Source: Rhabdaerophilum sp. SD176 (GTDB lineage: Bacteria > Pseudomonadota > Alphaproteobacteria > Rhizobiales > Beijerinckiaceae). Taken from it: DNA of 64,000 nucleotides. Under the pieces are notes generated by a model. It did not search any database. It was not told where the DNA came from and saw only the letters and a list, made by a program, of their open reading frames with translations. Of the stretch, positions 10,319-52,318 are shown in pieces (the first letter of the stretch is position 1; the number at the start of each line of letters is the position of its first letter). The position numbers were made by a program, and so were the translations under genes. The stretch spans positions 248,001 through 312,000 of the forward strand of contig NZ_JARJNS010000001.1 in assembly GCF_030143245.1 (NCBI RefSeq), given 5' to 3'.

Positions 10319-11515
10319 CTGATCGGCGACGGCACCGAGAACGTGGCCGTGAATACCCGCATCGCCATCATTGCCGGCGAGGGCGAGGATGCCTCGGCGG
10401 CAGCCAGCGGCCCGGCCCCGGCCGTTGCTGCGGCGCCGGCTCCCGCCGCCGCGCCGGCCGCCACGGTTCCGGCCGCGCCGCGCACCGAAATTCCGGCCTA
10501 TGACGCCACCTCGGAAGTGCCCGCCGGCACCGAGATGGTGAAGATGACCGTGCGCGAGGCCCTTCGCGATGCCATGGCCGAGGAAATGCGGCGCGATGCC
10601 GATGTCTTCGTCATGGGCGAGGAAGTCGCGGAGTATCAGGGCGCCTACAAGGTCACGCAGGGCCTGCTGCAGGAATTCGGCAATCGCCGGGTGATCGACA
10701 CCCCGATCACCGAGCATGGCTTTGCCGGCGTCGGCGTCGGCGCGGCCCTGGCCGGTCTGAAGCCGATCGTCGAATTCATGACCTTCAACTTCGCCATGCA
10801 GGCGATCGACCACATCATCAACTCCGCCGCCAAGACGCTCTACATGTCCGGCGGCCAGCTTGGCTGCCCGATCGTCTTCCGCGGCCCGAACGGCGCGGCG
10901 GCCCGCGTCGCAGCGCAGCACAGCCAGGATTATGCGGCCTGGTACAGCCAGATCCCGGGCCTGAAGGTTATCCAGCCCTATACGGCTGCGGATGCGAAGG
11001 GCCTGCTCAAGGCGGCCATCCGCGATCCCAACCCGATCATCTTCCTCGAGAACGAGATCCTCTACGGCCAGAGCTTCGATGTGCCGAAGGGCGATGATTT
11101 CGTCCTCCCCATCGGCAAGGCCCGCGTCGCCCGCGTCGGCCACCATGTCACGCTCGTCTCCTTCGGCATCGGCATGACCTATGCCATGAAGGCGGCGGAA
11201 GCCTTGGCAGGCGAGGGGATCGAGGCGGAAGTCATCGACCTCCGCACCATCCGTCCGATGGATGTCGCCACCGTGGTCCGCTCGATCCAGAAGACGAACC
11301 GCTGCGTCGCCATCGAGGAAGGCTGGCCGCAAAGCGGCGTCACGGCCGAAATCGGCATGAAGATCATGGAAGAGGCGTTCGATTATCTCGACGCCCCCGT
11401 GGCCCGCGTGACCGGCAAGGACGTGCCGATGCCTTACGCCGCCAATCTCGAGAAGCTGGCTCTGCCGAATGTCGGTGAAGTCGTCGCGGCGGCGAAAGCC
11501 GTGCTGTATCGCTGA
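10142..11515 (+). CDS. pdhB: Pyruvate dehydrogenase E1 beta subunit with N-terminal lipoyl domain
   Basis: 457 residues. Residues 1-80 are a complete lipoyl domain with the attachment site [11 protein letters not shown] (Lys43). An Ala/Pro linker runs to about 120, followed by the transketolase-like E1 beta domain ([35 protein letters not shown]...) and C-terminal domain. E1 beta fused to a lipoyl domain is known from alphaproteobacteria such as Zymomonas and rhizobia. The ATG at 10142 starts the lipoyl domain exactly; an in-frame TTG 15 bases upstream is less likely. The lipoyl segment is nearly the same as that of pdhC. Confidence 0.97.
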
Positions 11516-11530
11516 GGGGAGGCTGCATCG

Positions 11531-11707
11531 ATGCCCATCAACATCCTGATGCCCGCCCTCTCGCCCACCATGGAAAAGGGCAACCTTGCCAAGTGGCTGA
11601 AAAAAGAGGGCGACAAGATCAAATCCGGCGATGTCATCGCCGAGATCGAGACCGACAAAGCCACGATGGAAGTTGAGGCTGTGGATGAAGGCATCCTCGC
11701 GAAGATC
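11531..11707 (+). repeat. Direct repeat copy 2: lipoyl-domain coding segment (pdhC)
   Basis: Counterpart of the pdhB lipoyl segment, 1389 bases downstream in the same orientation. It encodes residues 1-59 of PdhC. Recombination between the copies would delete the pdhB E1 beta domain, so sequence divergence at third positions may be tolerated or selected. Confidence 0.85.
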
Positions 11708-12841
11708 GTCGTCGAAGCCGGCGCGCAGGATGTCGCGGTCAATGCGCTGATCGGCATTATCGCGGCCGAAGGCGAGGATGTGAAGGCGGCAGCCTCGGGC
11801 GGCGGGGCGGCTCCCGCACCCGCTCCGGCAACGGCCGCAGTTCCGGCCCCTGCGGCCCCGGCCGCGGCGACAGCCCCGGCAGCCTCGGGCGGGCGCGTTT
11901 TCGCCTCGCCCCTCGCCAAGCGCATCGCGAAGGAAGCCGGCATCAACCTCGCCGCGATTGCCGGCACCGGCCCGCATGGCCGCGTCGTGATGGCCGATGT
12001 CGAGGCCGCCAAATCCGGCGGCGGCGCCAAGATCATCCCGATGCCGGGTGCGGCCGCTCCGGCGCCCGCGGCGGCACCGGCTCCGGCCGCCATGGCTTCA
12101 GGCCCCTCGGCCGATGCGGTCAAGAAGCTTTTCGCGGAAGGCTCCTACGAGGAAGTGCCGCATGACGGCATGCGCAAGACCATTGCGCGGCGCCTGCTCG
12201 AATCCAAGCAGACCGTGCCGCATTTCTACCTCACGGTGGATTGCGAGCTCGATGCCCTGCTTGCCCTGCGCGAGCAGATCAACAAGGCTGCCCCGGTGAA
12301 GGACGGCAAGCCGGCCTACAAGCTCTCGGTCAATGACATGGTTATCAAGGCCATGGCCATGGCCCTGCGCGCCGTGCCGGATGCCAATGTCAGCTGGACC
12401 GACAATGCCATGCTCAAGCACAAGCATGCCGATGTCGGCGTCGCCGTCTCGATCCCCGGCGGGCTGATCACCCCGGTCATCCGCGATGCCTGCCACAAGA
12501 CGCTCTCCACCATCTCGAACGAGATGAAGGATCTCGCGGCCCGCGCGAAGGCCCGCAAGCTGAAGCCCGAGGAATATCAGGGCGGCACCACCGCCGTGTC
12601 CAATCTCGGCATGTTCGGCGTGAAGGATTTCGCCGCCATCGTGAACCCGCCCCATGCCACCATCCTGGCGGTCGGTGCGGGCGAGCAGCGCGCCGTGGTG
12701 AAGAACGGCCAGCTGGCCGTGGCCACGGTGATGTCCGTCACGCTCTCGACCGACCACCGCGCCGTCGATGGCGCGCTCGGCGCGGAACTGATCTCGGCCT
12801 TCCGCGGCTATATCGAGAACCCGATGGGGATGCTGGTCTGA
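11531..12841 (+). CDS. pdhC: Pyruvate dehydrogenase E2, dihydrolipoamide acetyltransferase
   Basis: 436 residues. In order: a lipoyl domain (1-80, Lys43), an Ala/Pro-rich linker, the peripheral-subunit-binding domain (RVFASPLAKRIAKEAGINL...GTGPHGRVVMADVE, about 123-160), a second Ala/Pro linker, and the catalytic acyltransferase domain from about 205. The active-site STDHRAVDG is near the C-terminus. E2 transfers acetyl from lipoamide to CoA and forms the core of the complex. It begins 15 bases after pdhB and is clearly in the same operon. Confidence 0.97.
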   Translation: MPINILMPALSPTMEKGNLAKWLKKEGDKIKSGDVIAEIETDKATMEVEAVDEGILAKIVVEAGAQDVAVNALIGIIAAEGEDVKAAASGGGAAPAPAPATAAVPAPAAPAAATAPAASGGRVFASPLAKRIAKEAGINLAAIAGTGPHGRVVMADVEAAKSGGGAKIIPMPGAAAPAPAAAPAPAAMASGPSADAVKKLFAEGSYEEVPHDGMRKTIARRLLESKQTVPHFYLTVDCELDALLALREQINKAAPVKDGKPAYKLSVNDMVIKAMAMALRAVPDANVSWTDNAMLKHKHADVGVAVSIPGGLITPVIRDACHKTLSTISNEMKDLAARAKARKLKPEEYQGGTTAVSNLGMFGVKDFAAIVNPPHATILAVGAGEQRAVVKNGQLAVATVMSVTLSTDHRAVDGALGAELISAFRGYIENPMGMLV

Positions 12842-41826: not shown

Positions 41827-42699
41827 TCAGCTTTCGCGCCGGATCGCGCTTTCGTGCCAGCGATGGAGAAGACGGTGCGACAGGTAGCTCGTGGCGAGGA
41901 AGATCGCGATGCCGGAAATCGAGATCATCAGCAAGGCCGCAAACATCCGCGGGATCTTCAGCTGATAACCGCTTTCGAGGATCCGGTAGGCCAGGCCAGA
42001 CGCCGAGCCGCCGGTCCCGGCCACGAATTCCGCCACCACCGCGCCGATCAGCGCCAGGCCGCCGGAAATCTTCAACCCGCCGAGGAAATAGGGCAAGGCG
42101 GCCGGCAGGCGCAGGTAGCGCATCGTCTGCCAGCGGTTGGCGCCATAAAGCTGGAACAAGGCCACCAGGTTGTGGTCCGCCGAATTCAGGCCGAGAATCG
42201 TGTTTGACAGGATCGGGAAGAACGCCACCAGCCAGGCGCAGATCAGCAGCGAGAGATTGACATCGCCGACCCAGATGATGATGAGCGGCGCGATCGCGAC
42301 GACCGGCGTCACCTGCAGGATGACCGCATAGGGCAGCAGCGAGCGTTCCAGCCATTTCGACTGCGTGAAGAGGATCGCCAGCGACACGCCCACCGAGACG
42401 GCTGCGATCAGCGCGGCAAAGGTGATCCGGAGGGTCACCCAGAGCGCAATCGACAGGGTCGGCCAGTCGGTGCCGAGCGTTTTGAGGATCTCCATGGGCC
42501 CCGGCAGAATATAGGCCGGGATGCCGCGATACCGGACGATGCCCTCCCACAGACCGAGGAAGATCGCGCCCATCACCAGCGGCGCGATGATGCCCGGCCA
42601 GCGGCTCTTCGGAATGCCGAGGAACCGCTCCTCAACCGCGAAAACCGGCGTGGCATCCTGGTCGGTGCCTCTTGCAGAGGCCGGATTGGGCTCGCTCAT
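41827..42699 (-). CDS. NitT/TauT-type ABC transporter permease
   Basis: 290 residues with six hydrophobic segments and the BPD_transp_1 EAA loop near 195-225 (LVALFQLYGANRWQTMRYLRLPAALPYFLGGLKIS), of the SsuC/TauC/ThiX subfamily. The ATG at 42699 follows GAGGGGAG; an ATG at 42714 overlaps the ATPase stop. Third gene of the importer operon (substrate-binding protein, ATPase, permease). The substrate is not known; see the locus-level finding. Confidence 0.92.
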   Translation of the reverse strand: MSEPNPASARGTDQDATPVFAVEERFLGIPKSRWPGIIAPLVMGAIFLGLWEGIVRYRGIPAYILPGPMEILKTLGTDWPTLSIALWVTLRITFAALIAAVSVGVSLAILFTQSKWLERSLLPYAVILQVTPVVAIAPLIIIWVGDVNLSLLICAWLVAFFPILSNTILGLNSADHNLVALFQLYGANRWQTMRYLRLPAALPYFLGGLKISGGLALIGAVVAEFVAGTGGSASGLAYRILESGYQLKIPRMFAALLMISISGIAIFLATSYLSHRLLHRWHESAIRRES

Positions 42700-42710
42700 G
42701 GAAACTCCCC

Positions 42711-43529
42711 TCATGCCTCGATGGCAGCCTTGAGCGCCTCGGAGCCGAGGCGGCAGAGATGGGCATATTCGGCCGAGGTCCGGAAAAGGTTGTCGCGCGG
42801 GAATGGCGCATCCACCTGCAACTCGCTCATGACCCGGCCGGGCCGGGCCGCCATCACGACGATCCGCTGCGAGAGATAGACACTCTCGAAGACCGAATGC
42901 GTGACGAACACCGCCGTGAAGCGGTTGCGCTCCCAGACAGCCAGCAGGTCGTCATTGAGCTTGTGCCGCGTGATCTCGTCGAGCGCAGCGAAGGGCTCGT
43001 CCATCAACAGGACTTTCGGCTCGGTCACCAGGGCGCGGGCAATAGAGACGCGCATTTTCATTCCGCCCGACAATTCGCGCGGATAGGCCTTCTCGAACCC
43101 CTTGAGCCCCACCAGAGCCAGCATGGTCTCGGCGCGCGCGTTGGCTTCGCTTGCCGCCATGTGGCGGAGCCGGAGCGGCAGTGTCACATTGTCCAGCGTC
43201 TGCGCCCAGGGCATCAGCGTCGGCTCCTGGAAGACGAAGCCGAGGCTGTGCTCGGCCTTGCCGTAGGCATCGGCCCTGTCCGCCCCCGGCCACTCGATCC
43301 GCCCGGCACTCGGCTGGGACAGGTCGGAGATGATGCGCAACAGTGTCGACTTGCCGCAGCCGGAAGGGCCCAGCAGGCTGACGAACTCGCCCGGGAACAG
43401 ATCGAGATCGACATCCCGCAGGGCAAGCGTCCCGTTGGAGAACTTCTTCGAAAGCTTCCGGATCGAGACGAGCGGGCGTTGACCCGCCCGCCCGTGTAGA
43501 GGCGCTTCGGTCACGTCGGATACGCTCAA
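42711..43529 (-). CDS. NitT/TauT-type ABC transporter ATP-binding protein
   Basis: 272 residues. Walker A GPSGCGKSTLL, Q-loop in FQEPTLMPWAQ, signature LSGGMKMRVSIARAL, Walker B VLLMDEPFAALDE, H-loop FVTHSVFES. Typical of the SsuB/TauB/NrtD group. Its start overlaps the stop of the substrate-binding protein gene by four bases and it nearly overlaps the permease, so the three are translationally coupled. Confidence 0.94.
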   Translation of the reverse strand: MSVSDVTEAPLHGRAGQRPLVSIRKLSKKFSNGTLALRDVDLDLFPGEFVSLLGPSGCGKSTLLRIISDLSQPSAGRIEWPGADRADAYGKAEHSLGFVFQEPTLMPWAQTLDNVTLPLRLRHMAASEANARAETMLALVGLKGFEKAYPRELSGGMKMRVSIARALVTEPKVLLMDEPFAALDEITRHKLNDDLLAVWERNRFTAVFVTHSVFESVYLSQRIVVMAARPGRVMSELQVDAPFPRDNLFRTSAEYAHLCRLGSEALKAAIEA

Positions 43530-44545
43530 ACGCCGACGCCCTTGTTGATGAATTCCAGGCTGTAGGCCTTCTTGAAGTCGATCCCGGCCGGGAACACGCC
43601 CGCGCCGTTCATATCCTTGTAGAAGGTTTCCCAGCGGGCATCGGTCATTGCGCCGACGCCGAGCTTGAGCGCGTCGCCCGACATCACGATGCCGCGCTCG
43701 GTCATGACCTTGATCGCATAGGCGATCTTGTCGTCGGTCATGTCCGGGTTGTCCCGCTTGATCAGCGCATTGGCTGCCGCGTTTTCCGGCCCGTTCTTCA
43801 TATAGGCCGCCCAGCCCTCGAGGCTGGCCGTCACGAAGCGCTGCACGACATCCTTCTTCTCCTTCACCATCTTCTCGGAGATGTTGATCGTCGTGTTGTA
43901 ATTGGCGAAGCCGGCATCGGCGATGAGATGCACGAGCGGTGTCACGCCGCCTTCCTTCTGGATCGCGAAGGGCTCCGAGGAAAGGAAGCCCTGCTGGCAG
44001 ACCTTCTTGTCCGCAAGGAACGGCGCCATGTTGAAGGTGTAGGGGCGGATCTGCTCGTCCGAATAGCCGAATTTCGCCTTGAGGAACGGCCAGTACGAAG
44101 TGCGGCCGGCAGCACCGACAAGGATCGGCTTGCCCTTCAGCGCAGCGAAATCGTCATTGCCCTGCCCCGGATGACAGATGATGACCTGCGGATCCTTCTG
44201 GAAGATCGAGGCGATGCAGAGGAAGGGCAGCTTCTGCTCGACATAGCGGATCGCCTCGAACGAGTTCGACATGATCATGTCGACAGCGCCGCCCAGCAGC
44301 AGCTGCGAGGGATTCTGCTGCGGGCCGCCCATGCGGATATTGGCATCGATACCGTATTTCTTGTAGATGCCGTTGGCGACGGCGTAATAGAAGCCGCCAT
44401 GCTCGGCCTGGGCGCGCCAGTTCGTCTGGTAGCTCACCTTGTCGAGGGTCTGGGCGCTCACGCGTCCGCCGACAACCGGCGTCAGCATGGACCCGCCGAT
44501 GAGGCCAAGGGCCGCCCTGCGATCGATCCGGAATTTCGACATCAT
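43526..44545 (-). CDS. NMT1/THI5-like ABC transporter substrate-binding protein
   Basis: 339 residues. N-terminus FRIDRRAALGLIGGSMLTPVVGGRVSAQ is a probable Tat signal (DRRAALGL). The mature start VSYQTNWRAQAEHGGFYYAVANGIYKKYGIDAN is the hallmark of the NMT1/THI5-like family, whose members bind thiamine-pyrimidine precursors (ThiY), riboflavin, taurine and similar ligands. GGGPQQNPSQLLLGGAVDM-like ligand-site residues follow (GGPQQNPSQLLLGG). GGAGG precedes the ATG at 44545. First gene of the importer operon and divergent from the FAD oxidase gene. Confidence 0.9.
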   Translation of the reverse strand: MMSKFRIDRRAALGLIGGSMLTPVVGGRVSAQTLDKVSYQTNWRAQAEHGGFYYAVANGIYKKYGIDANIRMGGPQQNPSQLLLGGAVDMIMSNSFEAIRYVEQKLPFLCIASIFQKDPQVIICHPGQGNDDFAALKGKPILVGAAGRTSYWPFLKAKFGYSDEQIRPYTFNMAPFLADKKVCQQGFLSSEPFAIQKEGGVTPLVHLIADAGFANYNTTINISEKMVKEKKDVVQRFVTASLEGWAAYMKNGPENAAANALIKRDNPDMTDDKIAYAIKVMTERGIVMSGDALKLGVGAMTDARWETFYKDMNGAGVFPAGIDFKKAYSLEFINKGVGV

Positions 44546-44682
44546 GGAATTCGCCTCCGCTTGTGCTTGTCCGTGCCCTCGGCACGCTCCCCTGAAACCA
44601 AGCAACGCCTATGCCGTTTCTTCGCGACATACCGAATGCGCAGCCTGCCCTCGTTTTCAGCATTATGCCGCCAAGCTGTCAC

Positions 44683-44696
44683 GCTGCCTAGGCAGC
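44683..44696. promoter_or_regulatory. Perfect 14-bp palindrome, importer/oxidase divergent promoter region
   Basis: GCTGCCTAGGCAGC reads the same on both strands. It lies in the 253-base spacer between the substrate-binding protein gene and the FAD oxidase gene, with two further inverted repeats within the next 56 bases. Most likely an operator half of a shared control region; the regulator is not encoded nearby. Confidence 0.55.
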
Positions 44697-44702
44697 CGGC
44701 AG

Positions 44703-44714
44703 GCCAAATTTGGC
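44703..44714. promoter_or_regulatory. Perfect 12-bp palindrome GCCAAATTTGGC
   Basis: Self-complementary A/T-centred site seven bases after the 14-bp palindrome in the same divergent spacer. The spacing between centres of the two sites is 19 bases, close to two helical turns, as expected for co-operatively bound dimers. Confidence 0.5.
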
Positions 44715-44719
44715 TTGTC

Positions 44720-44752
44720 ACCAGCCTCTGCGGCAATGCGTTGCAGGCTGGT
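44720..44752. promoter_or_regulatory. Inverted repeat ACCAGCCT-N17-AGGCTGGT
   Basis: Perfect 8-bp arms (44720-44727 and 44745-44752) about 47 bases before the FAD oxidase ATG. Could be a third operator or a hairpin in the leader. Confidence 0.45.
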
Positions 44753-44798
44753 CTGACGATTGCTAGCGTGGGCGCACAGTCTGACCCCGGGGACATCC

Positions 44799-46187
44799 AT
44801 GACCGCCGCACTCGCCAAGGCCGACCTATCGGCCGCGCCTGATCTCCCGCCCGCCATCCGGGCCGTCCTCGCCGAGATCGACGGCATCGCCGTCGAGACC
44901 GAGGAAAAGGTTGTCCGGAAGCGCAGCCGCGACTTCTTCTGGTACTCGCCCATCCTCAACGAGGAACTGACAGGCAAGAGCGCCGACATCGTCGTCACGC
45001 CGAAATCCGAGGCCGAGGTCATCCGCGTCGCCGCCGCCTGTGCCCGGCACCGTGTGCCGCTCACCCCGCGCGCCGGCGCGACCGGCAATTACGGCCAGGC
45101 CGTGCCCCTCCAGCGCGGCGTGCTGATGGATATGCAGGCCCTCACGGCCATCGAATGGGTCAAGCCCGGCCATATCCGCGTCGGCGCTGGCGCGAATATG
45201 GGCAAGCTCGACGCCGAATTGCGCCCGCAGGGCTGGGAATTGCGCATGCATCCCTCGACCAAGCGCACGGCGACAATCGGCGGCTTCGTTGCCGGCGGCT
45301 CGGGCGGCGTCGGCTCCGTCACCTATGGCGGCCTGCGCGAGCCCGGCAACATCCTCGCCGCCCGGATCGTTACGGTCGAGGAAACCCCGCGCGTCATCGA
45401 ATTGCGCGGCGATGCCGCCCAGAAGATCAACCGGGCCTATGGCACGACCGGCATCATCACCGCGCTCGAAATGCCGCTCGCGCCGGCCTATCCCTGGTTT
45501 GACGTGCTGGTGACTGCCCCGGACTACGCCACGCTTCTGGCCATCGGGCAGGACGTGGCCCGCGCGGATGGCGTCATCAAGAAGCTCCTGTCGCCGATCG
45601 CCTGGCCCCTGCCCGATTATTTCGGGCAGCTGAAGCCCCATTGTCCGGAAGGCCAGCCGGTCATGGCCTGCATGATCGCCGAATCCTCGCTCGAGAGCTT
45701 CCGCGACATTGTCGGCACACGCGGGACGATCACGCTCGAAACGCCGACGCGGGAAGAGGCGGGCAGCACGCCGCTCTACGAATATACCTGGAACCACACC
45801 ACGCTGCAGATGCTGAAGGCGGATCGCTCCGTCACCTATCTGCAATGCCTGTTCCCGCAGGCGCGCTTCGTCGACAGCATCCTCGAAATGGCCGCTCTCT
45901 TCCCGGATGAAATGATCCCGCATTGCGAATTCATCCGCTTCGGTGGCCATCTCACCTGCTCGGCCCTGCCCGTCATCCGCTACACCACGAAAGAGCGCCT
46001 CTACGAGATCATCGCCGCGCATGAGGCCAGGGGGGTGATGATCGCCAACCCGCATGTCGTCAGCCTCGAGGATGGCTCGCGCCACAAGCGCGCCGATGCC
46101 GACCAGCTGGGCTTCAAGGCCGAGATCGATCCCTATGGCCTGCTCAATCCGGGCAAGATGCGGTCCTATGTGCCGGTGAAGGCGTGA
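44799..46187 (+). CDS. FAD-linked oxidase (FAD_binding_4), copy A
   Basis: 462 residues. PCMH-type FAD domain: KSRDF-like RKRSRDFFWYSPIL, IVVTPKSEAEVIRVAAACARHRVPLTPRAGATGNYGQAVP, then HPSTKRTATIGGFVAGGSGGVGSVTYGGL and AYGTTGIITALEMPL. The C-terminal part resembles FAD-linked oxidase C domains (GLLNPGKM at the end). Such flavoenzymes oxidise hydroxy acids, amines or alcohols with quinone, cytochrome or O2 as acceptor; the substrate is unknown. GGGGA precedes the ATG at 44799. The GTG of the next gene overlaps its stop. A paralogue (copy B) is in the convergent operon. Confidence 0.88.
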   Translation: MTAALAKADLSAAPDLPPAIRAVLAEIDGIAVETEEKVVRKRSRDFFWYSPILNEELTGKSADIVVTPKSEAEVIRVAAACARHRVPLTPRAGATGNYGQAVPLQRGVLMDMQALTAIEWVKPGHIRVGAGANMGKLDAELRPQGWELRMHPSTKRTATIGGFVAGGSGGVGSVTYGGLREPGNILAARIVTVEETPRVIELRGDAAQKINRAYGTTGIITALEMPLAPAYPWFDVLVTAPDYATLLAIGQDVARADGVIKKLLSPIAWPLPDYFGQLKPHCPEGQPVMACMIAESSLESFRDIVGTRGTITLETPTREEAGSTPLYEYTWNHTTLQMLKADRSVTYLQCLFPQARFVDSILEMAALFPDEMIPHCEFIRFGGHLTCSALPVIRYTTKERLYEIIAAHEARGVMIANPHVVSLEDGSRHKRADADQLGFKAEIDPYGLLNPGKMRSYVPVKA

Positions 46188-46771
46188 GAATTCTCTATCT
46201 CTACTGCCACCCGCTGGCCGAGAGCTTCCATGCTGCCATCCGCGATGCCGCGCTGGAAAGCCTCCGCGCCGCCGGGCATGAGGTCGATCTCTGCGATCTC
46301 TATGCCGAGGGCTTCGAGCCGATCCTCACCGCCGAGATGCGGCGGGAATACCACGACGTGACGCTCAACCGGAAAGGCATCGAGAGCTATGTCGAGCGCC
46401 TGCACCGCGCCGAGGCGCTGGTTGTCCAGTTCCCGACCTGGTGCTTCGGCTTCCCCGCCATGCTCAAGGGCTTTTTCGACCGGCTCTTCTCGCCGGGGAT
46501 CACCTTCGACCTGTCCGACCCCGCCCATGTGAAGCCCATGCTCGGCCATATCCGGCAGGTCATCGGCATTTCCACCTACGGCCGGGACCGCTGGCGGGCC
46601 TTCGTCGTGGGAGATCCGCCGCGAAAGATGATCACCCGCTATCTGCGCTGGTTCGTTTCGCGCCGCGCGCGCATCCGCTATCTCGCGCTCTACCACATGA
46701 ATGTCGCCACCGAGGCGCAGCGCAAGGGCTTCATTGCCCGCGTTTCCGCCGAGTTCCGCACCCTGTCCTGA
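46184..46771 (+). CDS. NAD(P)H-dependent flavodoxin-fold oxidoreductase, copy A
   Basis: 195 residues. NQO/MdaB-type flavodoxin fold: ILYLYCHPLAESFHAAIRDAALESL, DLYAEGFEPIL, FPTWCFGFPAMLKGFFDRLFSPGITF. Uses bound FMN or FAD to pass electrons from NAD(P)H to quinones or other acceptors. Its GTG at 46184 overlaps the FAD oxidase stop (GTGA). The tight coupling to a FAD oxidase, repeated in the other operon, suggests joint function. Cytoplasmic. Confidence 0.88.
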   Translation: MRILYLYCHPLAESFHAAIRDAALESLRAAGHEVDLCDLYAEGFEPILTAEMRREYHDVTLNRKGIESYVERLHRAEALVVQFPTWCFGFPAMLKGFFDRLFSPGITFDLSDPAHVKPMLGHIRQVIGISTYGRDRWRAFVVGDPPRKMITRYLRWFVSRRARIRYLALYHMNVATEAQRKGFIARVSAEFRTLS

Positions 46772-46850
46772 CGGTTCTGCTCTTGCGCGGCACACCAACC
46801 TGCCCGAACCTCGCTCCCGTTCCCCGGATTCCCTGTCGCCAGAGGCTGCC

Positions 46851-47654
46851 ATGATGACTGACCCCTCCCGCAAGACGCATTGGTTCGACCTGACCGCACG
46901 GGATTTCGCTGCCCTCGACAAGGATCGCACCATCGCCGTCCTGCCGATCGCGGCTGTCGAGCAGCACGGGCCGCATCTCTCCGTCGGAACCGATTCCCTG
47001 ATCGCGCAAGGCATGTGCGATACGGTGGCCACCCGCCTGCCGGAGAGCCTGAGCGTGCTGTTCCTGCCTGTGCAATGCGTCGGCAAGTCGAACGAGCATC
47101 TGCGCTCACCGGGCACGATCACCATGAGTGCGGAAACGCTGATCCGCGCCTGGACCGAGATCGGCGAAAGCGTGGCCCGGGCCGGCATCCGCAAACTCGT
47201 CATCGTGAATTCGCATGGCGGCAATGTCGAGATTCAGGGCATCGTCGCCCGCGAGTTGCGTGTCCGCTGCCAGATGCTGGTCGCCCAGACCGCCTGGCGC
47301 CGCCTCGGCGTGCCGGAGGGCCTCTTCTCGGATATCGAGAACGCCTATGGCATCCATGGCGGCGATTTCGAAACCTCGGTCATGCTGCATTTTGCGGCGG
47401 CACGCGTCCGCATGGACAAGGCGGAGGATTTCGTGCCGAATTCCATTCGTTATGCCAAGGAATACAAGCAGTTGCGCGTCACGGGCTTCACGTCGATGGC
47501 CTGGATCGCCGAGGATAACCACCCTGAAGGCGTGGCCGGGGAGGCCCATCTCGCCACGGCCGAAAAGGGCGCCCGCGCCGTGGATTTCCAGGTGTCCCGC
47601 TTCATCGAGCTGCTGGAGGATGTCGCGCGGTTCCCGCTGGAGCAGCTGGCGTGA
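46851..47654 (+). CDS. Creatininase-family amidohydrolase
   Basis: 267 residues. Metal-binding and active-site motifs of the family: VEQHGPHLSVGTDS (Glu37, His39, Asp48), VNSHGGN, and HGGDFETS with the second Glu. Creatininase opens the ring of creatinine; other family members (ArfB formamide hydrolases, MftE) cleave amide bonds in pyrimidine, flavin or peptide precursors. No creatine-degradation genes are in the window. The ATG at 46851 follows AGAGG; a second ATG is at 46854. Its TGA overlaps the start of the next gene. Confidence 0.9.
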   Translation: MMTDPSRKTHWFDLTARDFAALDKDRTIAVLPIAAVEQHGPHLSVGTDSLIAQGMCDTVATRLPESLSVLFLPVQCVGKSNEHLRSPGTITMSAETLIRAWTEIGESVARAGIRKLVIVNSHGGNVEIQGIVARELRVRCQMLVAQTAWRRLGVPEGLFSDIENAYGIHGGDFETSVMLHFAAARVRMDKAEDFVPNSIRYAKEYKQLRVTGFTSMAWIAEDNHPEGVAGEAHLATAEKGARAVDFQVSRFIELLEDVARFPLEQLA

Positions 47655-47977
47655 TGAACCTCCTCTTTGTGTGTTCTGCCAACAGGTTACGAAGCCCGAC
47701 AGCAGAACAGGTCTTTTCGGGTTGGCCCGGCATCGAAACGGATTCCGCCGGGCTGCTGAACACGGCCGATATCGTGCTCTCCGCGGAGCAGGTGGAATGG
47801 GCCGACATCATCTTCGTCATGGAGAAGCGCCACCGCACGAAGCTGTCGCAGAAATTCTCGCGGCATCTCAAGGGCAAGCGGGTGATCTGCCTCGACATCC
47901 CCGATGACTATGCCTTCATGCAGCCGGAGCTTGTCGCCGTGCTGGAACGCAAGGTCACGCCCTTCCTGAAGCGCTGA
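47654..47977 (+). CDS. Small LMW-phosphotyrosine-phosphatase-like protein
   Basis: 107 residues, shorter than the usual 150. The P-loop CSANRLRS (Cys7 to Arg13, Cx5RS) is at the N-terminus, followed by VFVMEKRHRTKL and the LDIPDDYAFMQPEL segment. This is the known short variant of the LMW-PTP superfamily often annotated only as a phosphatase-like protein. The general-acid DP loop is reduced to IPDDY. The ATG at 47654 overlaps the creatininase stop. Its link to the catabolic genes is unclear; it may be a passenger. Confidence 0.8.
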   Translation: MNLLFVCSANRLRSPTAEQVFSGWPGIETDSAGLLNTADIVLSAEQVEWADIIFVMEKRHRTKLSQKFSRHLKGKRVICLDIPDDYAFMQPELVAVLERKVTPFLKR

Positions 47978-48004
47978 GCGCCGCTGCGAGACAACCGTAG
48001 TTTT

Positions 48005-48595
48005 TCAGCGAAGCCCGCCGAGCACTGCCCTCACCCGATCCAGATGCGCCTTCCGCGCCTCTTCGCCGACCACGTCGATCCGGTGCAGGGCGAGCCAGAT
48101 CGTCCGGCATTTCGGATGGCACAGAACCCGGATGCCGCTGAGCAGGATCCGTTGCCCGGGCCGCCCCACCAGCCACCACCACCATTTCGGGGATCCGAGG
48201 CTGGTGACCACCGCCAGCAGCCGGATATTCTGCATCAGGCCCCGGATCGGCTGGTTGCCCTCCGGCATGGTGAAGGTCTCGTGCGGGATCAGCACCCGCT
48301 CCAGCCAGCCTTTCAGCATGGCCGGCTGGGCATACCACCAGGTCGGGTAGACAAAGACCAAGCCCTCCGCCGCCTTCACCCGGTCGAGATGCTCGGCCAC
48401 CGGTAGCCGGTTCTCGCCACGCGTGTGGTAGCCGGCCCGCTCCGCCTCGCTCATGACCGGGTTGAACCCTTCGGCATAGAGATCGAGCAGGTCGAGCTCA
48501 TGCCCGGCACCTTGCAAGGCAGCGATCGCCGTGTCGCGCACCGCCTCGGAGAAGCTGCCCTTGCAGGGGTGGCAATAGACGAGAAGTATCTTCAT
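48005..48595 (-). CDS. NAD(P)H-dependent flavodoxin-fold oxidoreductase, copy B
   Basis: 196 residues, the same family and layout as copy A: ILLVYCHPCKGSFSEAVRDTAI, DLYAEGFNPVM, YPTWWYAQPAMLKGWLERVL. By eye about 40 percent identical to copy A. It lies nine bases downstream of FAD oxidase copy B and converges on the other operon with only 27 bases between them. Confidence 0.87.
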   Translation of the reverse strand: MKILLVYCHPCKGSFSEAVRDTAIAALQGAGHELDLLDLYAEGFNPVMSEAERAGYHTRGENRLPVAEHLDRVKAAEGLVFVYPTWWYAQPAMLKGWLERVLIPHETFTMPEGNQPIRGLMQNIRLLAVVTSLGSPKWWWWLVGRPGQRILLSGIRVLCHPKCRTIWLALHRIDVVGEEARKAHLDRVRAVLGGLR

Positions 48596-48603
48596 GTGCG
48601 ATA

Positions 48604-50016
48604 TTAAATCCCAGCTTCAAGGCATTTGAACAAAAAGGTCTTTCCGCTCTTGAAATCATAGCCCGGATCCTCCCAGGCGATCATCTTGCCCGGGTTCAGC
48701 AATCCCTGCGGATCTGCCTCGCGCTTGAAGGCAAGCTGCGTCTCGTCCGTCTGCTTCATCCCGCCTTCCTCCAGCGTGTAGCGATGCGGGTTGAAGATCG
48801 GCGCCCCCATTTCCTCATGGATGGCCATGATCTCTTCCAGCCGCTCCTCGGTGGTGAATCGCACCAGCGGAAGCCCGAAGCAGGTCACCTTGCCGTCGAA
48901 CCGGACGAATTCGAGATGGCAGGGCAGCTCGTCGCCGAACCGTGCATGGATCTTCTCGACCAGTTCGACCTGGTTCGGGAAGGGATAGAGCACCTGCAGA
49001 TAGGTCCAGGCCGGATCCACCCGCAGGGCCCGCAAGGTTGTATGGTTCCAGGAGAGTTCGAAGACAGGCGGCAGGCCCTTTTTCTCGTCCTCGCCGAGCT
49101 GGTCGGATTGCATCAGCAATTCCGCTCCCTTGAACCGACGCATGAAGGCCAGCATCGGCTGCAGCGCGAAATCCGCGACCATGACCATGACCACATGCTT
49201 CTCGCGCGGCAGGAATTTCCGGTGCCGCATGAACGTATCATGCGGGATCGGTGCGGCAACGACGCCGAGCTCCTTGAGCAGCAGACCATCCTGCTCGCCG
49301 AGGAGGTTGGCAAATTCGGTTGCCCGACGCAGATCGTCGAAGCCGATCAGCACATCCACCCAGGGATAGGCGGTCGCCAGCGGCACTTCACATTCCGTGA
49401 TGATGCCGTTGGTGCCATAGGCATGCGCCACCTTGAGCAGATCATCGCCGGATAATTCGAGAATCCGGGGGCTTGCTTCCATCGTAGCCACCTTGAGGCG
49501 GATAATATTGCCGTAATCGCGGAGCCCACCCCACCGGATCGAGCCGACTCCGCCCGATCCGCCCGCAATGAAACCACCAAGTGTCGCGGTGTGGTAGGTT
49601 GACGGGTGCAACCGCAGTTCCTGGCCGGACTTCGCCCGCGTTTCGTGGTCGATCTCCGACAGGATCGCACCCGGGCCGGTGACGACCCGGCCTGGCCCGA
49701 TCGATTGCACGGCCTTCATCGCCGAGAGATCGAGAACGACGCCCCCTGACAACGGCATCGCCTGGCCATAGTTTCCGGTGCCTGTGCCCCGCGGAGTAAC
49801 GGGAATGCCAAGACGATGGCATTCCGACAACACCACGACCAGTTCGTCCTCGTTGGCTGGCTGGACAATGATGTCCCCGACCACCGAGTCGAGCTGCCGC
49901 TTCAGGGGGGGCGAGTACCAGTAGAAGTCTCGGCTCTTCTGCTTGAGGATTGCAGGGTTCTCGTCGATCCGGATGGCGCCCAGCCGGGTCTTGAGGGTGG
50001 CGATGTCGTAGCGCAT
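48604..50016 (-). CDS. FAD-linked oxidase (FAD_binding_4), copy B
   Basis: 470 residues. Same architecture as copy A: KSRDFYWYSPPL, IPVTPRGTGTGNYGQAMPL, HPSTYHTATLGGFIAGGSGGVGSIRWGGL, AYGTNGIITECEVPL, ELSWNHTTLRALR and GLLNPGKM. The shared SRDFxWYSP and SWNHTTL/TWNHTTL motifs set this pair apart from ordinary D-lactate dehydrogenases. AAGGACC precedes the ATG at 50016. It is 21 bases downstream of the amidohydrolase and begins the second half of that operon. Confidence 0.88.
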   Translation of the reverse strand: MRYDIATLKTRLGAIRIDENPAILKQKSRDFYWYSPPLKRQLDSVVGDIIVQPANEDELVVVLSECHRLGIPVTPRGTGTGNYGQAMPLSGGVVLDLSAMKAVQSIGPGRVVTGPGAILSEIDHETRAKSGQELRLHPSTYHTATLGGFIAGGSGGVGSIRWGGLRDYGNIIRLKVATMEASPRILELSGDDLLKVAHAYGTNGIITECEVPLATAYPWVDVLIGFDDLRRATEFANLLGEQDGLLLKELGVVAAPIPHDTFMRHRKFLPREKHVVMVMVADFALQPMLAFMRRFKGAELLMQSDQLGEDEKKGLPPVFELSWNHTTLRALRVDPAWTYLQVLYPFPNQVELVEKIHARFGDELPCHLEFVRFDGKVTCFGLPLVRFTTEERLEEIMAIHEEMGAPIFNPHRYTLEEGGMKQTDETQLAFKREADPQGLLNPGKMIAWEDPGYDFKSGKTFLFKCLEAGI

Positions 50017-50037
50017 GGCTGGTCCTTTGTCTGACGG

Positions 50038-51366
50038 TCAGACCGAGAGAGAGTCGAGCTCGGAATAGGCGGGCGGCCTCTCGGCGAGAAGCTTGCCGTT
50101 CCGGATGACGCGTCTGTCGGCCTGGGGCCGGCAGAGCCATTCGTTCAGCGTTCGCGCCTCGAACAGGACCAGGTCTGCCGCCTGCCCCTCTGAAAAGATA
50201 CCCAAACTGTCGAGACGCATCTGCGCTGCCGGTCGCGTGGTGATTGCCTCGAGCCAGGGCCGAGAGGCATGGTCGAAATGCAGGATCCTTGTCGCTTCAC
50301 GGAAGACCTCGACAGCATCCAGATCACCATAGGCGTAGAAGGGATCGCGCGTGTTGTCGGAAGAAACCATGGTCGAGACACCCGCCGCATCCAGTTCATG
50401 CAGGGGCGCCACACCCCGCCAGCGTGGCGTACGGCCCGATTGCCTGTCCTGGAGATAGAGATTGCACATCGGCAAGGAGACCACGTTCAGGCCGGCCTCG
50501 CCCAGCTTCCCGATCACCCGGGCGCGATCTCCATCGTCCATCAGGGCCAGCGAGCAGCAATGCCCAGCCAGCGCCCGGCCCGTGAAGCGATGGCGGATCA
50601 GCGCATCCGCAATACGCTCGAGGCTTCGAGCATCAGGCGAAGCGCTCTCGTCGACATGGAAATCGAGATCGAACCCCTCTGCCTTTGCCACCTCGATCAT
50701 ACGGTCGAGCGCCGCATCCAGTCTGGCATCGGGCCTCTCGCCGAGGAATGTCACGGCTCCGAGGATGCCGCCAAAACGGCGGATCTGGCGCAGGACGGCC
50801 TCGAATTCGTCAGGAACATCAATGACCGACACGATCGGCATGAGGCAGACCGCCTGGAGCTCGATCCGGCCCCGCCACTCGGCACGGACCTCATCGAAAA
50901 CCGGCCAGGAAATGCCGATCTGCTTGCCGATGGAATCGAGATGGGTGCGGATCGCCCCCGTCCCATGGGCATAGGCGGCCCGCAGCGCGAAGGACATCCG
51001 CGCACGGACATCCCCGGCATCCCAACGCGTCTCGCGATCATGCCCCACCGTTTCGCGGGCCCCGAAGAACGTGCCATCCGGGTTGGGCGAGCGGGCAAAG
51101 ATATGCCCCTTGTCGAGATGCGTATGAATGTCGACAAAAAGCGGCATTGCGAGACGCTGCCCGGCATCGACATGCAGCCGCCCGTCGGCGGGCGCCCGCC
51201 CTTCGACAATGCGCGCGATCTTCCCGCCCTGCAGCAACAGGGCATACGCCTTGAGCCGGTCATCCGGCGCCTGCCCTTCCGGCCTGCCGGCATGAACCAG
51301 GCGCTCCGGCAAGGACAGGTTGTCGAGCCAGAACTCATCCGCCCTTGGCGGCCATTGAAACGTCAC
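50038..51366 (-). CDS. CodA-like amidohydrolase (cytosine/creatinine deaminase superfamily)
   Basis: 442 residues. Metal ligands and signatures: PLFVDIHTHLDKG (His81, His83), FDLDFHVDES, ALAGHCCSLALM and VSSDNTRDPFYAYGDLD, the pattern of cytosine deaminase and N-isopropylammelide amidohydrolases. HVDE is the substrate-binding His-x-x-Glu. It probably deaminates or opens a nitrogen heterocycle; exact substrate unknown. The start is a GTG at 51366. First gene of the minus-strand operon with FAD oxidase B and oxidoreductase B. Confidence 0.9.
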   Translation of the reverse strand: MTFQWPPRADEFWLDNLSLPERLVHAGRPEGQAPDDRLKAYALLLQGGKIARIVEGRAPADGRLHVDAGQRLAMPLFVDIHTHLDKGHIFARSPNPDGTFFGARETVGHDRETRWDAGDVRARMSFALRAAYAHGTGAIRTHLDSIGKQIGISWPVFDEVRAEWRGRIELQAVCLMPIVSVIDVPDEFEAVLRQIRRFGGILGAVTFLGERPDARLDAALDRMIEVAKAEGFDLDFHVDESASPDARSLERIADALIRHRFTGRALAGHCCSLALMDDGDRARVIGKLGEAGLNVVSLPMCNLYLQDRQSGRTPRWRGVAPLHELDAAGVSTMVSSDNTRDPFYAYGDLDAVEVFREATRILHFDHASRPWLEAITTRPAAQMRLDSLGIFSEGQAADLVLFEARTLNEWLCRPQADRRVIRNGKLLAERPPAYSELDSLSV

Positions 51367-51931
51367 GTCAGCACCCCAGCCCTTGATTGACCTCGCCTGT
51401 CTAGCAAAGTCGATTCCAGCGCCTCAGCATATAGCGCATCGACGGATCCAGAGAACGGGTGCATTGGACCGGCCCGTGAAGGCTTGGCCCACCACTCGGC
51501 CCAAGGGCCAGTTTCATTCGTTCAAACAGCGCCGAGATCCGACATTTTGCCGGTATCAGGAGAATTCAGCATGTCGGAGCCATCACAACCAGCCTTTGAC
51601 GGAGCACGGACATGCCAGGGAGCAACTGGCATGAACTGACTTCGACATAGCGTAGCGCGACAACCAGTGCCGGCACCGCAGGAGGTAACGGCACCACCAG
51701 CCCGAGCCACCGGACCGTGCCTTCCCGATCCCACAACAGCGCGACAGTGTCAAGGACAAAATTCCCTTTACAGGTATTTTTTCTTATTCTAGGCTTTGCA
51801 TTGCATCCAGAGCCGCGATCAACTCGCCAACCGTTTCGTCCCGTGGCATGACCCGATCGATCCACCTGACCATGTCTCTCGATGCTCGTCTGATGCGCCG
51901 GGAGTGAACCTGCCCAAGCACGGAAGCCGCC
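51367..51931. other. 565-base spacer between amidohydrolase and Rid gene
   Basis: Large divergent non-coding region. It holds a 22-codon reading frame at 51571-51639 with AGGAGA eight bases upstream, an 8-bp inverted repeat CATGCCAG-N7-CTGGCATG (51611-51633), a GTGCCGGCAC palindrome (51667-51676), and an A/T-rich stretch near 51770-51800. A 49-codon minus-strand frame at 51784-51933 is considered below. No recognisable full gene. Confidence 0.6.
51611..51633. promoter_or_regulatory. 8-bp inverted repeat in the amidohydrolase/Rid spacer
   Basis: CATGCCAG (51611-51618) and CTGGCATG (51626-51633) are exact reverse complements with a seven-base spacer. Candidate operator for the amidohydrolase operon or the Rid gene; the sequence differs from the palindromes of the importer/oxidase spacer. 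Confidence 0.4.
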
Positions 51932-52318
51932 ATGAACCGCAGCCCTGTCAATCCGCCCTCCATCCGCGAGCCCTTTGCCCGATACAGCCACGGCCTGCTG
52001 GTCGAAGCCCCGCAGCGCATGCTCTTCGCCTCGGGGCAGTTGGGGATCGGACCGGATGATACGATCCCTGAGGATGTCGAAGCGCAGGCTGTTCTCTGTT
52101 TCGAGAATATCCGGGCCATTCTCGCTGCCGCAGCGATGGATTTCTCGCATGTTGTCCGCTTTACGGGATTTGTCACGGACAGGGCGCATTTTCCCGTTTA
52201 TGGAGCCGTCAGAAGCCGCTATGTGAGCGGCAACGCCTATGCTTCGACGCTTGTCATCGTCTCCGGCTTCACGCGGCCTGAATTCAAGGTCGAAGTCGAG
52301 GTGACAGCCATCGTCTGA
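51932..52318 (+). CDS. Rid-family (YjgF/YER057c) protein without the catalytic Arg
   Basis: 128 residues. Typical Rid fold: [52 protein letters not shown] and a C-terminal [11 protein letters not shown]. RidA deaminates reactive enamine/imine intermediates and needs Arg105 (E. coli numbering). The aligned residue here is Ser105 in AYASTLVIV, so it belongs to a Rid subgroup without that activity. Its position beside amine- or heterocycle-oxidising genes is notable. GGAAGCCGCC lies before the ATG, a weak Shine-Dalgarno. rimO follows 14 bases downstream. Confidence 0.85.

Follow-up and report, generated by a model that had tools for sequence, protein, structure and literature searches.

A conserved gene cluster of Rhabdaerophilum sp. 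SD176 and other bacteria, with a proposed role in pteridine catabolism

Within a 64,000-nucleotide stretch of the Rhabdaerophilum sp. SD176 genome (G000:C11:248001-312000, part of a 3.96-Mb genome; hereafter the window), eleven genes at positions 41827-52318 encode an importer, two flavoproteins, two reductases, two amidohydrolases, a Rid-family protein and a small phosphatase-like protein. Do these genes belong together and, if so, what do they break down? We found that they do constitute a genuine gene cluster, and that the greater part of it is common to many bacteria. A core of deaminase, oxygenase and reductase is conserved, and the parts are co-inherited and have been repeatedly reordered. 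Altogether, our results point to a cluster for the catabolism of pteridines, which comprise pterins and, as their deaminated form, lumazines. These ring compounds, left over when folate decays, would be used as a source of nitrogen and perhaps of carbon. We consider this reading probable. An original prediction made from the sequence had proposed the same eleven genes; all eleven open reading frames (ORFs) are indeed open, and Pfam returned the families it had named (BPD_transp_1, ABC_tran, NMT1, FAD_binding_4 twice, Flavodoxin_2 twice, Creatininase, LMWPc, Amidohydro_3/1 and Ribonuc_L-PSP). The genes are as follows:

41827-42714, minus strand: permease of an ATP-binding cassette (ABC) importer, NitT/TauT type (Pfam BPD_transp_1, E 1.6e-27)
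42711-43529, minus strand: ATPase of the ABC importer (Pfam ABC_tran, E 1.5e-35)
43526-44545, minus strand: periplasmic substrate-binding protein (SBP), NMT1/THI5 type (Pfam NMT1, E 3e-23)
44799-46187, plus strand: FAD1, a FAD_binding_4 flavoprotein, likely a second flavin oxygenase (Pfam, E 7e-27)
46184-46771, plus strand: RED1, flavodoxin-fold NAD(P)H oxidoreductase (Pfam Flavodoxin_2, E 5.2e-28)
46851-47654, plus strand: creatininase-family amidohydrolase (Pfam, E 1.5e-69; start at 46851 or 46854)
47651-47977, plus strand: small protein resembling low-molecular-weight protein tyrosine phosphatases (LMW-PTP; Pfam LMWPc, E 1.2e-5; CX5R motif seen by eye)
48005-48595, minus strand: RED2, flavodoxin-fold NAD(P)H oxidoreductase (Pfam Flavodoxin_2, E 7.3e-30)
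48604-50016, minus strand: FAD2, a flavin oxygenase and ortholog of PDB 6V42 (phmmer, E 9.6e-211)
50038-51366, minus strand: CodA-like amidohydrolase, proposed pterin deaminase (NF005759, 554.9 bits)
51932-52318, plus strand: Rid-family protein without the RidA arginine (Pfam Ribonuc_L-PSP, E 9e-22)

By strand and spacing, the genes fall into four runs, namely permease-ATPase-SBP (minus), FAD1-RED1-creatininase-PTP (plus), CodA-FAD2-RED2 (minus) and Rid (plus). There are 4-nt overlaps at FAD1/RED1 and at creatininase/PTP, and Rid ends 14 nt ahead of rimO. An upstream TTG at 44605 is a possible alternative start of the SBP, and our similarity queries began at 44760 or 44802 for FAD1 and at 46845 for the creatininase-family gene.

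FAD2 is the ortholog of a deposited flavin oxygenase, PDB 6V42, whose title reads 'Crystal structure of the flavin oxygenase with cofactor bound involved in folate catabolism'. The two proteins are 66.5% identical over 463 residues, and 6v42_A is the top Foldseek match (TM score 0.87) of the AlphaFold2 (AF2) model of FAD2 (pLDDT 73.6). In a tree of 95 rows (133 before thinning), FAD2 lies within a 51-row clade that includes 6V42 and excludes FAD1 (support 0.815). Moreover, the nearest fetched relative of 6V42, with 85.7% identity, sits in an operon of the same type in a Hoeflea metagenome-assembled genome (L104), together with genes for the creatininase-family protein, Rid, SBP, ATPase, permease, CodA, RED1 and RED2. 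Unlike the 6V42/6V43 system, the window genus adds FAD1, which is 48% identical to 6V42 and about 42-47% identical to FAD2. FAD1 groups with proteins of L131, L132, L116, L117, L133 and L134 (support 0.947), and its subfamily is that of Klebsiella, Pantoea and one family outside the class of the window. Judging from these sequences, the window genus is a variant with two predicted oxygenases from two subfamilies.

To define the surroundings of FAD2, named genomes were scanned with a FAD2 alignment, and the best 80 of 576 confirmed relatives, that is the nearest ones, were taken; 66 of these loci were kept and fourteen were dropped for short flanks. The CodA-type deaminase adjoins FAD2 in 66/66 loci and a flavodoxin-fold reductase in 65/66. 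Within 8 kb of FAD2 we also found the SBP (54/66), the ATPase and the permease (53/66 each), Rid (51/66) and the creatininase-family gene (44/66). The control neighbours of the window lay within this distance in 2/66 (rimO) and 0/66 (eamA) loci. These loci are not independent, since many come from Mesorhizobium, Ancylobacter and Bosea. In a different set of 66 loci that hold all five genes (length-filtered; 67 before), pairwise comparison of protein distances among FAD2, CodA, SBP, permease and Rid gave correlations of r 0.74-0.89, and none of 1000 label shuffles reached the FAD-SBP value of 0.768. Shared ancestry of the hosts would by itself explain part of this correlation. In the window genus, 13 of 17 genomes hold FAD2 together with CodA and the other 4 lack both; the SBP and the creatininase-family gene each occur in 15/17. 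L014 and L025, from two species of the genus without FAD2 and CodA, retain the SBP/creatininase-family pair alone of the cluster genes of the window. In both, the creatininase-family gene is divergent from the binding protein (L014 7770-9758; L025 8297-10331), and an ORF of IS66-like transposase type, assigned by eye, lies near the pair in L025 (11965-13659).

The relatives also carry regulators, of MarR type in 27/66 loci (for example L043 12025-12576) and of LysR type in the clusters of Rhizobium and others (for example L115 6794-7744). At E 1e-3, the window showed no counterpart of these regulators or of an 8-oxoguanine-deaminase-like gene of the relatives. A gene for the LMW-PTP-like protein was found in 4/125 loci, all from the window genus and two of them from one genome. 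The original prediction had counted it in the set; as it is not conserved, we reject it as a pathway member and regard it as an incidental passenger at the genus level.

The cluster reaches well beyond these genomes. A FAD2 search of plasmid records matched 141 records, 109 of them from Rhizobium. We viewed nine annotated plasmid regions from Rhizobium, Agrobacterium, Klebsiella, Pantoea, Mameliella, Paroceanicella and Nitratireductor, for which the gene table is incomplete. Their gene orders differ, and they hold the CodA-type deaminase in 8/9 cases and Rid and the creatininase-family gene in 9/9 each. The flavodoxin-fold reductase is replaced by one of PDR/VanB type in Klebsiella and Pantoea. 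With the Pantoea protein as query, 32 of 398 genomes of a phylum sample had a FAD homologue at E 1e-60, and the deaminase was present in 12 of the 15 loci fetched from that sample. In one family outside the class of the window, 22 of 200 genomes hold a deaminase of the L132 type at E 1e-60. Twenty further loci from this family, chosen by deaminase similarity and two of them sharing one genome, contain a cluster-type FAD gene in 18/20 and a creatininase-family gene in 17/20 cases; in 6/20, the first recognised gene to follow the deaminase downstream is Rid. As for accessory oxidation genes, 2-oxoglutarate (2OG)-Fe(II) oxygenase genes lie in or at the edge of the clusters of L120 (11587-12504; Paroceanicella), L137 (at about 7.0 kb; a genome of the same class) and L118 (13040-14035; Agrobacterium plasmid). 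Another Agrobacterium plasmid locus (L114 17202-21006) has genes for a PaoABC-type molybdenum aldehyde oxidoreductase some 3 kb away from its cluster; by way of speculation, this enzyme could oxidise a pterin aldehyde.

These neighbourhoods bear on the chemistry of the flavoproteins. The reductase next to FAD2 and its PDR/VanB-type stand-in in Klebsiella and Pantoea fit an oxygenase role. The original prediction had called both flavoproteins oxidases; the FAD family holds, but we infer that oxygenase, with a partner reductase as electron source, is the more fitting name for both. The best PDB matches of RED2 are NAD(P)H quinone reductases.

The CodA-like protein was likewise assigned to the right family, but it lacks the substrate-pocket residues of a cytosine deaminase. 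Over 111 rows (window, relatives and Pantoea, the last counted twice; one of 110 matches was dropped for an X), H61, H63, H214, E217, H246 and D313 are kept in every row, in line with the metal ligands and catalytic Glu and His of an amidohydrolase of the pterin-deaminase kind. Q156 is found in 0/111 rows, whereas D314N and W319F are found in 111/111, the window having P, N and F at these positions. Q156, D314 and W319 are substrate residues of E. coli CodA. On the other side, the protein scores above the cut-off of NF005759, a model named cytosine deaminase. The pterin deaminases Arad3529 and the Variovorax sp. F1 pterin deaminase (PDA) belong to the same broad amidohydrolase class, and the Variovorax report describes a cloned PDA of 399 amino acids that deaminates folate and pteroate (PMC9513972). 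It also places conserved 'endoribonuclease' genes downstream of predicted V. paradoxus PDA genes, where a cloning primer was set (PMC9513972). We take these genes as Rid because the Pfam name of the Rid domain is Endoribonuclease L-PSP. The order then matches the deaminase-Rid order of L132, L175-L177, L193, Klebsiella and Pantoea; in contrast, the Rid gene of the window is not downstream of the deaminase. The Pantoea deaminase has 399 amino acids and is followed by Rid, so that length and gene order, and these only, suggest a link with the Variovorax PDA. A pADP-1 amidohydrolase 45% identical to the Pantoea deaminase was considered and set aside, as it sits in a cyanuric-acid region whose displayed part has no annotation for any of the remaining cluster enzymes. 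A 2013 abstract on Arad3529 reportedly suggested that this enzyme starts an undescribed pterin degradation pathway.

In Rid, Ser stands at the Arg105 position in 88/88 cluster rows (window, Pantoea counted twice, and matches of at least 45% identity to a query), and Arg only in RidA and RutC, so that the predicted family stands and the imine-deaminase arginine does not. According to PMC4433059, imine hydrolysis depends on this Arg, yet Ser occurs in about 10% of RidA proteins; the serine thus does not exclude a function of the cluster Rid. The gap between codA and rid measures 565 bp in the window (51367-51931), about 515 bp in L027 and about 240 bp in L013. Rfam gave no RNA family match in this gap, and over 37-57 kb its output was limited to a tRNA and a single sub-threshold match on top of it; a promoter/terminator scan returned no more candidates than shuffled sequence. 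The creatininase-family protein belongs to its family and yet does not qualify as a creatininase, scoring 90.2 bits with TIGR04448 against a cut-off of 235. At the position of E122, which binds metal in creatininase, the HMMER alignment shows Gly.

What, then, would the locus do? The original prediction pictured a nitrogen heterocycle that is taken up, deaminated or ring-opened, and oxidised by flavin-dependent enzymes. This general idea stands and can be narrowed to pteridines, the substrate, the step order and every step of the mechanism being our inference. The NMT1-type importer would take up a pterin, and the CodA-like enzyme would strip its 2-amino group to give lumazine. FAD2, joined by FAD1 in this genus, would oxygenate the pteridine ring with electrons supplied by RED1 and RED2. 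The creatininase-family amidohydrolase may then open a lactam ring, the arginine-less Rid may help to hydrolyse an unstable intermediate, and the products would reach ammonia via ordinary urea/ureide metabolism. This proposal draws on the title and the close identity of 6V42, on the Variovorax PDA, on the deaminase-Rid gene order, on the changed cytosine-pocket residues, and on an SBP fold like that of aminopyrimidine and thiamin binders. We also count in its favour an 8-oxoguanine-deaminase-like gene in 10/125 loci (L016, L018, L026, L057, L096, L110, L112, L116, L133 and L141), because members of that family act on isocytosine, a 2-amino-4-oxo ring, and on 8-oxoguanine (PMC6186785). Two of these loci, L026 and L057, belong to a single genome; the L026 copy (10961-12304) scores 646.1 bits against a cut-off of 532, and the copies of L116 and L133 are only 35-36% identical. 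Nitrogen release is suggested by genes beside single copies of the cluster, namely urea carboxylase with allophanate hydrolase, and ureidoglycolate lyase with hydantoinase B in Nitratireductor.

Several observations weigh against pteridine catabolism. The folate link of FAD2 comes from the title of a PDB entry only, and we found no paper naming 6V42 or 6V43 in the open literature. Between the Pantoea-type deaminase and the CodA-like protein of the window, identity is only 29%. The deaminase is missing from the Agrobacterium plasmid locus L118 and from 3 of the 15 phylum-sample loci that have a FAD gene (L133, L134 and L144). The 8-oxoguanine-deaminase-like gene lies within 8 kb of FAD2 in only 3/66 loci and is absent from the window. 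Urea carboxylase, allophanate hydrolase and ureidoglycolate lyase each passed the cut only in their source locus and hydantoinase B in one locus beyond it, and in none of the 66 loci does any of the four lie 8 kb or less from FAD2. Rfam found no folate or purine riboswitch across 37-57 kb. Finally, the SBP is missing in 12/66 FAD2 loci, 10 of which carry an EamA-type permease downstream instead (one Pfam-checked).

The importer itself is less faithful to the core when viewed from its own side. Similarity to the SBP (43-50% identity) served to pick 11 loci from beyond the genus, in stretches of roughly 16-20 kb. CodA was found in 4/11 (L016, L018, L019 and L026), any FAD gene in 5/11, Rid in 4/11 and the creatininase-family gene in 7/11; that is, 7/11 stretches have no CodA and 6/11 no FAD gene. 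The pairing of binding protein and FAD gene with its oxidoreductase, which the original prediction proposed to look for in other genomes, is thus much more frequent seen from FAD2 than seen from the SBP, and homologues are not scattered for the core but are so in part for the importer. Scattering of this kind is what the original prediction had named as grounds for refutation, and on that count it mostly survives. Importer homologues without the core indicate that the importer and the creatininase-family gene may serve other substrates elsewhere, a further point against the pteridine reading.

Four other explanations have to be weighed. The window could hold two side-by-side systems with their own substrates, one made of SBP, FAD1, RED1 and the creatininase-family protein and the other of CodA, FAD2 and RED2. 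FAD1 and FAD2 do come from two old subfamilies, each next to its own reductase, and most related loci have one FAD copy, with a second in only 5/66. The window genus, L035, L046 and L053 hold two FAD genes. So, separately, do L026 and L089, where the additional FAD lies on another tree branch and 7-12 kb from FAD2; this suggests that the two-FAD state arose by at least two joinings. Nevertheless, the locus has a single importer, FAD1 is present in all 13 genomes of the genus that have FAD2, and both FAD subfamilies keep similar partners elsewhere. We consider two separate systems unlikely.

The locus might instead degrade another 2-amino-4-oxo heterocycle, such as 8-oxoguanine, isocytosine, a modified guanine or a deazapurine, folate being only one substrate of 6V42. 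The 8-oxoguanine-deaminase-like genes and the known activities of their family, described above, fit this option, but their scarcity near FAD2 and absence from the window tell against it, and the substrate statements found for relatives name only folate and pterins. This alternative seems to us rather improbable.

A locus for salvage or catabolism of the thiamine pyrimidine or of thiamine breakdown products is very unlikely. The binding protein is of the predicted NMT1/THI5 type, and the best Foldseek matches of its AF2 model (pLDDT 88.4) are the ThiY-type 3ix1, a binder of N-formyl-aminopyrimidine, and the thiamin-bound 4nmy. It shares this fold with the ThiXYZ aminopyrimidine importer, but identity to the solved members is only 17-19%, and there is no thiamine-salvage enzyme family among the eleven genes and none listed in the incomplete gene table of the nine plasmid loci. 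Degradation of creatinine or hydantoins, in which the creatininase-family and CodA-like enzymes would open and deaminate the ring, is suggested by the family names and by the hydantoinase B and ureidoglycolate lyase genes adjoining the Nitratireductor copy, but is highly improbable given the low TIGR04448 score, the Gly at a metal-ligand position and the fact that none of the eleven genes encodes a creatinase or sarcosine oxidase.

Pteridine catabolism, the reading we prefer, also resembles in outline the E. coli Rut pathway for uracil, which combines a flavin oxygenase and reductase, an amidohydrolase, a Rid protein and an importer. Unlike Rut, the window has a FAD_binding_4 oxygenase, an ABC importer instead of a symporter and a Rid without the RutC/RidA arginine, and Pfam found no RutA-type monooxygenase family among the eleven genes. 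The original prediction knew of no described pathway with this gene set. Likewise, we found no full bacterial pathway for pterin, lumazine or folate degradation among the papers listed from the searchable open literature, in which the Variovorax work turned up, but the 6V42 folate oxygenase and the Variovorax pterin deaminase are on record. The system is known in part, through two enzyme types, and the window genus has a predicted two-oxygenase version of it.

Whether and how bacteria decompose deaminated folate products is posed as an open question in the discussion of PMC9513972. As a tentative proposal, which we hold to be somewhat less than an even prospect, the cluster may be the missing lower pathway of pterin and folate mineralisation in Proteobacteria. 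In it, the pteridine ring would be opened jointly by a deaminase, one or two FAD_binding_4 oxygenases with their partner reductases, a lactam hydrolase of creatininase fold and a Rid that lacks the arginine and has a new activity, the window genus using two oxygenases. The cluster draws attention to two protein types, the arginine-less Rid and the creatininase-family proteins that are not creatininases, and it is a candidate gene set for the decomposition of deaminated folate products, present in culturable rhizobia.

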